Source: Thermocoleostomius sinensis A174 (lineage in GTDB: Bacteria; Cyanobacteriota; Cyanobacteriia; Elainellales; Elainellaceae). From it: a stretch of 64,000 nucleotides of DNA. The notes under the pieces were generated by a model. That model was given only the letters and a program-made list of their open reading frames with translations, made no database searches and was not told the DNA's origin. The position numbers and the translations under genes were made by a program. Below are positions 1,068 through 2,991 of this stretch, piece after piece; the stretch's first letter is position 1, and every line of letters starts with the position of its first letter. The stretch lies in the NCBI RefSeq assembly GCF_026802175.1, contig NZ_CP113797.1, positions 4,999,026-5,063,025 of the forward strand. The letters run 5' to 3'.

Positions 1068-2111
1068 TCATGCTTTCTCCTTTCCCTTCAGCCACCGATC
1101 GATTGGCTCAGTGGACTTCACCACCTGCATTCCAGCATCGGCAAAGCGTTGGTAAGCGGCATCAGCTTGGTCGGTAAAATCCACGACTCCGGGCACAACT
1201 ACAGGCGAGGAGCAATCCTCTAGCAAGTAGACTTTTTGAACCAGGCTCGGATCAGTAGCTTGAATTTCGCTGAGCAAATTTTCGACAGTCCAGGCAACAC
1301 AGTGGCTTTTTGCTTGCCCTGCAATCACAATCGCGTCAAACTGAAGCAGCTTTTGCAAAAATGCCGTGTTTTTGTGAGCGATTGTTTGTTTCTGGGCGTC
1401 TTCCAATACTTCTGGACTCAGAACGGAGTAATTTTCGGTTAACGGATTGCTGCCCTTCAGTTCAAAGTGGGTTTGGCGATCGCGAGCAATGGCATGGAAA
1501 AAACAAGCTTCTTCTACAGCTGAGACGATCGCATGACCAACGCCGCCCAGCATAGAATGGTAGGGCCAGATGGTGAGCGGATACTTGCCGTCTTGATGTA
1601 AGGTGCGGACATAATGCAAGGCATAGGACTGGAGCCGATCAATCTCGTAGCCAAGCCCTTCTGCAATGGCAGCGTTGACGTTCCACCGGCCTTGCTCAAC
1701 GTCATCCAGGGAAATCATGGTCATGGCGGGGGGGTGATCCCCGTTGGCATCAACCCAAAAAATGGGATGGAAAATTTGAGTGGCGGTGTGGGTGTCCATC
1801 GTCAAGGCAATTTCGGTGATGCGATCGAGATGGCGATAGATAAACTCACACAAGCGGATATTGTCTTCCACTGCTCCCATGCCCGATCGCCCGCCTACAA
1901 AAAGCTCAAAATCGGGAATGCAGAATGTATTCTGAACATCGATCGCCAACAGACACAGACGAAAGGTATCACTAGCAGCGGGAAGTAGGTGATGCTGCTT
2001 GGCCCAAGCTTTGGCATCGATCGATCGCTGTTGATAGGGAACTCGCCAAACCTCGCCCACAGAATGTGGAACAAAATGGGCGGGCAGCGGCAATTGCGTG
2101 GTTGTGCTCAT
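1068..2111 (-). CDS. Nicotinamidase/isochorismatase-like cysteine hydrolase
   Basis: About 347 residues from the ATG at 2111, which has a GGAGG box 9 bases upstream; the frame also opens 15 bases earlier at a TTG. The fold has the Asp-Lys-Cys triad of cysteine hydrolases: Asp in LLAIDVQNTF, Lys in IAHKNTAF, nucleophile Cys in AKSHCVAWT. A metal-site-like stretch MDTHTATQIFHP is also present. Family members hydrolyse nicotinamide, isochorismate or related amides. The protein is much longer than the roughly 200-residue PncA because of an N-terminal extension and an insert. Its promoter region is shared with a divergent NrtR-like regulator, which favours a role in NAD metabolism, but the substrate is not proven. 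It is convergent with ureF. Confidence 0.82.
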   Translation of the reverse strand: MSTTTQLPLPAHFVPHSVGEVWRVPYQQRSIDAKAWAKQHHLLPAASDTFRLCLLAIDVQNTFCIPDFELFVGGRSGMGAVEDNIRLCEFIYRHLDRITEIALTMDTHTATQIFHPIFWVDANGDHPPAMTMISLDDVEQGRWNVNAAIAEGLGYEIDRLQSYALHYVRTLHQDGKYPLTIWPYHSMLGGVGHAIVSAVEEACFFHAIARDRQTHFELKGSNPLTENYSVLSPEVLEDAQKQTIAHKNTAFLQKLLQFDAIVIAGQAKSHCVAWTVENLLSEIQATDPSLVQKVYLLEDCSSPVVVPGVVDFTDQADAAYQRFADAGMQVVKSTEPIDRWLKGKEKA

Positions 2112-2234: not shown

Positions 2235-2257
2235 CTTAGTGTAACTTAAACACTAAG
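2235..2257. promoter_or_regulatory. Palindromic operator, probable NrtR site
   Basis: Perfect 8-base inverted arms CTTAGTGT (2235-2242) and ACACTAAG (2250-2257) around a 7-base spacer, 42 bases before the NrtR-like ATG and between two divergent genes. Palindromic sites next to their own genes are usual for NrtR regulators; assigning it to NrtR is inference. Confidence 0.65.
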
Positions 2258-2298: not shown

Positions 2299-2991
2299 AT
2301 GCCTCATACCTATAAATATCCTAGACCGGCTCTTACTGTTGATTGTGTCGTATTTGGACTCGATCGCCAACATACGCTGAAAGTCATGCTCATTCAACGC
2401 AAGCTATCACCCTTCCAAGGCGATTGGGCCTTGCCAGGTGGCTTTGTACGCATGGATGAATCTCTAGAGGCGGCAGCATTGCGGGAGCTATGCGAAGAAA
2501 CCGGGATTGAACGGTTGTTTTTAGAGCAACTCTACACGTTTGGGGCAGTCAATCGCGATCCCCGAGAACGGGTGGTCACGGTGGCGTATTATGCCCTGAT
2601 TAACCTAGAAGAACACCCCGTTAAAGCGGCGTCGGATGCTAGTGATGCTGCCTGGTTTGCTATCGATGCCCTGCCATCACTGGCGTTTGATCATGACCAG
2701 ATTCTCAAGATTGCCCTCGATCGTTTGAAAGCTAAAGTGCGCTACGAACCGATTGGTTTTGAATTGTTGCCGCGCAAGTTCACGTTATTTCAGCTTCAGC
2801 GCCTTTATGAAACGGTGCTGGGACAAGAACTGGACAAGCGCAATTTTCGCAAAAAAATTTTGAATATGGGGTTACTGCGCGAACTAGACGAACGCCAGCA
2901 GGATGTCCCCCATCGTGCTGCCAAACTCTATCAATTTGACGAAGCGACCTATCGCCAACTTCGAGAGAAAGGTTTTAACTTTGAAATTTGA
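2299..2991 (+). CDS. nrtR: NrtR-type Nudix-domain transcriptional regulator
   Basis: A 230-residue protein with an N-terminal Nudix domain (about 10-145) and a C-terminal winged helix (about 150-225, [18 protein letters not shown]). The Nudix box GGFVRMDE-x7-RELCEETGI is complete, so hydrolase activity cannot be ruled out; many NrtR proteins have lost activity and use the domain to sense ADP-ribose. NrtR family members repress NAD biosynthesis and salvage genes. The gene is divergent from a nicotinamidase-like hydrolase with a palindrome between them, which fits local regulation of NAD turnover. The NrtR assignment is from domain architecture and context. Confidence 0.85.

Follow-up and report, generated by a model that had tools for sequence, protein, structure and literature searches.

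A perfect palindrome in the spacer between two divergent genes of the window (the whole 64-kb stretch of DNA analyzed here) is very probably the operator of NrtR-2, the regulator encoded on one side of it, judging from sequence comparison across cyanobacteria. It is also likely to control two divergent promoters, that of nrtR-2 itself and that of HYD, the nicotinamidase-like hydrolase encoded on the other side. The features concerned are the following.

1068 to 2111, minus strand: HYD, nicotinamidase-fold cysteine hydrolase of 347 aa, called from its predicted fold and conserved residues
2112 to 2298, no strand: divergent spacer with the putative operator, 187 bp
2234 to 2258, no strand: putative operator palindrome TCTTAGTGT-N7-ACACTAAGA, with the core TAGTGT-N7-ACACTA at 2237–2255
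2299 to 2991, plus strand: NrtR-2, Nudix domain with an intact Nudix box and NrtR winged-helix domain

An earlier, sequence-only reading of this DNA had placed an 8-7-8 palindrome at 2235–2257. The palindrome is real, but its true extent is 9-7-9, with one more pair on each side: TCTTAGTGT-AACTTAA-ACACTAAGA, with arms of 9 bp and a loop of 7 bp. The divergent ATGs that flank the spacer lie at 2111 on the minus strand and 2299 on the plus strand, leaving 40 bases between the operator and the NrtR-2 ATG and 122 bases between the operator and the ATG of the hydrolase, for which an alternative upstream TTG start is possible at 2126. Taken by itself, the palindrome is only moderately unusual and a modest finding: among 5,000 dinucleotide shuffles of the 187-bp spacer, a 9-7-9 palindrome arose in 3, and any palindrome with arms of at least 9 bp and a loop of 3–10 bp in 32, while the 64-kb window holds five distinct palindromes of this looser class. 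We count it as a site because it is conserved elsewhere. The spacer of the window contains only one site at up to two mismatches; many relatives hold two. A 75% copy of 2233–2252 stands 73 bp before it, at 2160–2179 of the window, and may be what is left of a second site.

The plus-strand gene had been named an NrtR-like regulator, and the name holds: its product matched both PF00293 (NUDIX) and PF21906 (NrtR_WHD) above the cut-off, the Nudix and winged-helix pairing of NrtR regulators. It fell short of the NCBIfam equivalog NF050029, with 184.5 bits against a cut-off of 400, and the other NrtR of the same genome, NrtR-1, was also below this cut-off (121.3 bits). Among solved structures, the best sequence matches of NrtR-2 were AraR (5bs6) and then 2fml and 3gz5, both titled MutT/nudix family protein; 3gz5 is presumably the Shewanella NrtR. 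Matches to the NrtR family at E 1e-25 were present in 227 of 291 cyanobacterial genomes. We defined NrtR-2 as the close group, comprising 67 rows in 65 of the 291 genomes with 58–100% identity to the window protein; the distant group lay at 43–47% identity among the matches listed. This count leaves out a partial match in G156 (residues 12–142, 70% identity, beside its HYD) and includes G007, though its match spans residues 1–186. NrtR-1 of the window's genome is 44% identical to NrtR-2 and is encoded in a pncB-nadD-nrtR1 operon; the NrtR of the window is a second paralogue, distinct from the pncB-linked one. In a quick tree, 41 NrtR-2 proteins clustered with one phage protein, and NrtR-1 and a Variovorax protein fell outside this group (support 0.77).

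We then turn to the comparison that carries the operator assignment. When the upstream regions of 39 NrtR-2 genes, that of the window not among them, were searched for 5-mer dyads, AGTGT-N7-ACACT came out as the most frequent, at 18 of the 39 loci, compared to a shuffle maximum of 2. The exact TAGTGT-N7-ACACTA occurred in 61 of 291 genomes, namely in 45 of the 65 with NrtR-2 but only 16 of the 226 without it (Fisher 8e-24, relatedness ignored). Nearly all exact sites of NrtR-2 genomes (47 of 49) lay at NrtR-2 or the HYD operon, with 41 within 400 bp of NrtR-2, 6 more at the hydrolase operon, and 2 elsewhere. In four genomes (G088, G155, G128, and G009), NrtR-2 is on another contig or more than 1 Mb from HYD, and there the exact sites lie 54 or 305 bp from HYD or before its operon; at two further loci (L072 and L097), a gene parts NrtR-2 from the operon, and the site stays with the operon. 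When named HYD loci were compared, a site with at most one mismatch was detected in 15 of 17 loci with NrtR-2 versus 3 of 63 without it (Fisher 1.5e-11, relatedness ignored; these 80 loci overlap partly with the first set of loci). The two misses were a locus with an NrtR-2 remnant (L151) and L201, while the three site-bearing loci without NrtR-2 in the stretch (L165, L200, and L216) carry other operon genes. A scoring matrix made from 50 sites of 34 of 43 loci, window excluded (training range 15.0–34.8 bits), gave 26.4 bits to the window site and 10.3 to the runner-up in the 64 kb. Genome-wide, a backwards control pattern was found in 69 of 291 genomes versus 61 for the motif; since the motif is no commoner than this control, the case rests on position and co-occurrence. 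Together, dyad discovery, co-occurrence, and the position of the sites strongly support the NrtR operator that the sequence-only reading had predicted.

No exact site was found in 20 of the 65 NrtR-2 genomes. In the nearest relative with a full NrtR-2 (G159, locus L069; 85% identity), the search gave no more than a pair of two-mismatch sites, both upstream of HYD. The NrtR-2/HYD spacer of G054 also holds sites with two mismatches only, and sites with one or two mismatches lie by its second NrtR-2. Upstream of NrtR-2 in G238, G003, and G069, no site was found. In G193, a remnant of NrtR-2 comprising the first 31 codons only lies 37 bp from HYD (L010 2552–2644, the same place as L151 7871–7963), and no operator-like site stands beside it; regulator and site seem to have been lost together here. 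At two loci with HYD and no NrtR-2 (L012, about 2566–2586, and L018, about 1461–1481), we observed a perfect palindrome, TTATGGTAA-N3-TTACCATAA, just upstream of HYD, which is perhaps the operator of another regulator.

A palindrome in this position could also act as RNA, i.e., as a hairpin in the nrtR leader serving as an attenuator or stability element rather than as a DNA operator. Predicted folding of either strand gave −10.1 or −10.5 kcal/mol (z −4.3 and −4.9), as a hairpin would, but any perfect dyad folds well, whatever its role. Moreover, in relatives the site is found doubled, with imperfect arms, or in front of the hydrolase operon at a great distance from NrtR-2, all of which speak against an RNA role. 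No terminator-like site was found in 2000–2400, and on this ground the hairpin or terminator reading was set aside; we consider it highly improbable.

The sequence-only reading had further expected sites of this kind at NAD-biosynthesis genes, and this expectation failed. A scan of the 5.8-Mb genome for TTAGTGT-N7-ACACTAA gave a single perfect match, none with one mismatch, and ten places with two; the palindrome is thus unique in the genome and absent from pncB. This genome-wide pattern search takes in nadA, nadE, and nadM. Seven of the ten two-mismatch places were inspected (L002–L008), of which five fell inside ORFs, and no NAD-like gene product was seen by eye at any of the seven. An operator at NAD-biosynthesis genes, as NrtR regulators have, was not found in the window's genome; with no further genomic site at up to one mismatch and none at up to two around pncB-nadD-nrtR1, an ordinary NAD-biosynthesis regulon was rejected for the palindrome, as the criterion set by the sequence-only reading itself demands. 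The operator itself is not refuted by the missing NAD regulon, because the NrtR of the window is a second paralogue.

The presence of two paralogues raises the question of which one the site serves. It might belong to NrtR-1, or to both, as part of an ordinary NAD-salvage regulon, given that NrtR-1 is related to NrtR-2 and encoded in the same genome and that a partly similar element was noted by eye upstream of pncB in four of four genomes (GGT(A/G)..ACTAT in three and TAGTA..ACTAT in one). However, 162 of the 226 genomes without NrtR-2 have an NrtR-family match (E 1e-25), yet only 16 of the 226 contain the exact site, and no TAGTGT-N7-ACACTA at up to two mismatches was found in the 8–9 kb around pncB-nadD-nrtR1 in four of four genomes, including that of the window. 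We therefore regard a role for NrtR-1 at this site as improbable and keep to NrtR-2 as the cognate regulator. At the four pncB loci (L141, L146, L147, and L148), the upstream element stands beside a −10-like sequence, as GGT(A/G)..ACTATAAT in three and TAGTA..ACTATTAT in one, and is a possible NrtR-1 operator.

NrtR-2 resembles MsNrtR, as described in parts of PMC6800001, in combining Nudix and NrtR winged-helix domains, in having a palindromic site in the divergent spacer, and in the autoregulatory position of that site. It differs in that its Nudix box is intact, in that no site lies at pncB-nadD, and in that the pncB-nadD operon of the same genome holds a second NrtR, NrtR-1. According to PMC4666351, those NrtR proteins that regulate NAD metabolism have an impaired Nudix motif, an impairment that the NrtR-2 of the window does not share. 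Among 41 NrtR-2 proteins examined, the box was intact in 39, the exceptions being one E to K change and one two-residue insertion; conversely, it was degenerate in four of four NrtR-1. A passage of PMC12735969, citing Okuda 2004, reports robust ADP-ribose pyrophosphatase activity for NuhA of Synechococcus sp. PCC 7002, which has an intact Nudix motif; NuhA is, like NrtR-2, a cyanobacterial Nudix protein with an intact motif, and that passage discusses it beside NrtR. By analogy with the family, ADP-ribose is the likely ligand of NrtR-2, and because the Nudix box is intact, NrtR-2 may also hydrolyze it. Whether the protein would destroy its own ligand in this way we judge to be evenly balanced.

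The minus-strand gene had been described as nicotinamidase-like, a name that agrees with the predicted fold of HYD. At the sequence level, HYD had no match in Pfam or NCBIfam at E 0.001 and still none in Pfam at E 1, so that the gathering score of PF00857 was not reached, and searches of PDB sequences gave nothing useful; 13 of 34 members of the HYD family matched PF00857 at E ≤ 1, the best at 0.0014. When an AlphaFold model of HYD (pLDDT 86.6, pTM 0.88) was used in Foldseek, nicotinamidases came out best, with E 4e-9 to A. baumannii PncA. The model aligned to Drosophila nicotinamidase with Z 20.6 and an rmsd of 2.6 over 217 residues, and the 14 top-ranking structural matches were all to nicotinamidases or pyrazinamidases, with Z from 20.6 down to 15.8; the six nicotinamidases that reached Z ≥ 18 stood clear, and the lower ones were tied with other isochorismatase-fold enzymes. 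Seven residues (D58, D106, H108, H115, H185, K219, and C271) were invariant in 34 of 34 proteins, i.e., the window protein and 33 relatives from named genomes; with roles as in PncA, we take D58-K219-C271 to be the triad and D106, H108, H115, and H185 to be metal ligands. HYD is thus like PncA/Pnc1 in its predicted fold and in its presumed D-K-C triad and metal ligands, but it is unlike them in its length (347 aa), in the roughly 50 residues that precede the matched domain, in its insertions, and in lying below Pfam detection. A single NAPRTase-family match was obtained in the window's genome, at pncB, and the three other PF00857 (isochorismatase-family) proteins found there are without the D-x-H...H and WPxH signatures kept in HYD; for these reasons, HYD is the best candidate in this genome for a nicotinamidase feeding PncB.

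Co-occurrence pointed in the same direction. Across the 291 cyanobacterial genomes, with presence limits of E 1e-10 for HYD and E 1e-40 for pncB, HYD was present in 198 and pncB in 206; both occurred in 190 genomes, HYD only in 8, pncB only in 16, and neither in 77. Weak rows within these limits were counted (for HYD, G171 at 5e-12, G198 at 5e-24, and G136 at 1.5e-33; for pncB, G168 and G289). The association was retained when stratified by family (p 2.6e-8), and without family f2 the counts were 190 with both, 8 with HYD only, 16 with pncB only, and 42 with neither. HYD was also present in 62 of the 65 NrtR-2 genomes. Since 63 of the 80 named HYD loci have no NrtR-2 in the fetched stretch, control by NrtR is not needed for HYD function.

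These data have to be weighed against the view that HYD is an amidohydrolase of the same fold acting on another substrate, its link to pncB reflecting shared ancestry and genome size. HYD is far from PncA in sequence, with no Pfam match and 17–20% identity in the top five structural matches, and from about the eighth match the structural scores tie with those of other isochorismatase-fold enzymes (Z about 16 to 15). The genomes with pncB and no HYD (16) or HYD and no pncB (8) fit this view, as does the partial clustering of the genomes with neither gene, of which 35 of 77 belong to family f2. Next to the HYD homologues of Vibrio and Variovorax, no pncB annotation was seen, and two characterized cyanobacteria use nicotinamide phosphoribosyltransferase instead, according to parts of PMC6610520 and PMC13036487. 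In contrast, the pncB association survives both family stratification and removal of f2, the D-x-H...H and WPxH signatures set HYD apart from the other isochorismatase-family proteins of the genome, and the six nicotinamidases at Z ≥ 18 rank above all other structural matches. We consider the other-substrate view a serious contender, though short of probable. The identification of HYD as a nicotinamidase, based on predicted fold, presumed residues, and pncB co-occurrence, we hold to be somewhat probable. The same three lines, together with the ADP-ribosylglycohydrolase in the operon of relatives, lend inferential support to the tie with NAD turnover that had been proposed for the hydrolase.

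In relatives, the pair is part of a longer operon. We inspected 40 stretches, 39 of them chosen because they contain NrtR-2 and one for its remnant; many also have HYD nearby, and a sample chosen in this way is not random. A common order in them was NrtR-2 divergent from PP2C, ADP-ribosylglycohydrolase (ARH), kinase, and HYD, followed by vWA. By ORF clusters, PP2C, kinase, and vWA were each present in 18 of these 40 selected stretches and ARH in 20. ARH and PP2C were confirmed by Pfam, and the putative vWA was called from a DxSxS motif and predicted fold. The kinase, the least certain of the operon calls, was assigned from a glycine-rich start seen by eye and weak matches to models that we take to be kinase-containing. 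PADLOC gave matches to the kinase, PP2C, and NrtR-2 at E 4e-8 to 0.007, too weak for their labels to be used. At one locus (L071 5566–5612), two more operator-like sites stand as a pair between ARH and the kinase gene, where they may mark an internal promoter.

No ARH was found in the window's genome in a search repeated with genomes that do match, and PP2C and kinase queries of it came back empty in searches that carried no positive control. Because ARH, kinase, and PP2C were not found there, we read the window as a reduced, two-gene NrtR-2/HYD form of the system. Similar bare pairs occur at L168 and L183, with sites of zero and one mismatch, and at L090, with two-mismatch sites only.

The operon of the relatives recalls the ARG-centric systems of PMC9503650, in parts of which ADP-ribosylglycohydrolase is associated with Nudix-HTH regulators, phosphatases, and vWA and is proposed to counter viral ADP-ribosylation; relatives of the window likewise have an ADP-ribosylglycohydrolase, a Nudix-HTH regulator, a phosphatase, and a vWA in one neighborhood. 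The systems in those parts of PMC9503650 come from actinobacteria, planctomycetes, and proteobacteria and have rhodanese-type, calcineurin-like, HD, and HAD phosphatases, whereas the cyanobacterial operon adds PP2C, a kinase, and the nicotinamidase-fold hydrolase. The terms “PP2C,” “isochorismatase,” and “TerY” are absent from the PMC9503650 text. The locus in the window has the Nudix-HTH regulator and no ADP-ribosylglycohydrolase. A vWA protein, a PP2C, and a kinase also make up the TerY-P triad. The same three kinds of protein stand together in the relatives and in one huge phage (L238), and the operon differs from the triad in adding HYD, ARH, and NrtR-2; no TerY-P label appeared among the PADLOC matches, and the three were not found together in the window's genome, where the PP2C and kinase queries were empty.

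Beyond cyanobacteria, tblastn recovered distant relatives of HYD from 10 records of plasmids and 4 of phages. An uncultured phage of 462 kb (L238 3995–8011) carries HYD and then, one after another, relatives of vWA, PP2C, and kinase, and two other large phage records have a vWA gene near HYD. On a Variovorax megaplasmid (L235), HYD diverges from an NrtR whose Nudix box is degenerate, and the genes nearby include vWA, a separate Nudix hydrolase with an intact box, a macro-domain gene, and NAD kinase. At L235 4913–5135, this NrtR and HYD diverge around two TTAGT-N11-ACTAA sites in their spacer, which share outer half-sites and spacing with the window's; one such site arose in 2 of 20,000 shuffles and two sites in none. 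A second Variovorax strain has the same two sites, while a third Variovorax plasmid (L240), where NrtR and HYD are codirectional, has no TTAGT-N11-ACTAA site. The fetched stretch around the Vibrio HYD homologue gave no match to NrtR-2 or vWA.

Comparison established the site, its links with NrtR-2 and with the hydrolase operon, the predicted fold, the conserved residues, and the co-occurrence with pncB; from these we infer a working that takes in direct binding, repression, the ligand, and both enzyme activities. A dimer of NrtR-2 on the dyad would repress nrtR-2 and HYD. Once ADP-ribosyl transfer or glycohydrolysis consumes NAD, the Nudix domain would bind free ADP-ribose, and the DNA would be released. 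HYD would then deamidate the nicotinamide freed by the same NAD-consuming reactions, and PncB and NadD would rebuild NAD from the resulting nicotinate. In the longer operon, ADP-ribosylglycohydrolase would strip ADP-ribose from its targets, perhaps under the control of vWA, PP2C, and kinase, and NrtR-2, with its intact Nudix box, may hydrolyze ADP-ribose and so reset itself. Put together, HYD would be an unrecognized cyanobacterial nicotinamidase that forms, with an NrtR-2 that senses and hydrolyzes ADP-ribose, the ADP-ribosylglycohydrolase, and a vWA-PP2C-kinase switch, a system for ADP-ribosylation reversal and NAD recovery, partly common to huge phages and a proteobacterial megaplasmid and probably used in phage–host conflict over NAD. 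We put this joint reading forward tentatively, as an unlikely whole, and the role in phage conflict is speculative.

A literature search that covered few subscription papers found no paper on this operon or on a cyanobacterial nicotinamidase. The comparison provides a predicted operator and an operon for a second NrtR of cyanobacteria, one whose catalytic box is intact, and NrtR-2 is a natural case in which to test whether sensing and destroying ADP-ribose can be combined in a single protein. HYD becomes a named candidate for the step from nicotinamide to nicotinate used by PncB, a step that would thereby be tied to ADP-ribosylation reversal and to huge phages.

Two further homologues were noted. 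A 636-kb uncultured phage (L242 4001–4654) encodes an NrtR-2 relative, 56% identical and with an intact Nudix box, and a HYD 66% identical to that of the window occurs in a MAG labeled Candidatus Gracilibacteria (L203), perhaps a mis-binned cyanobacterial contig.
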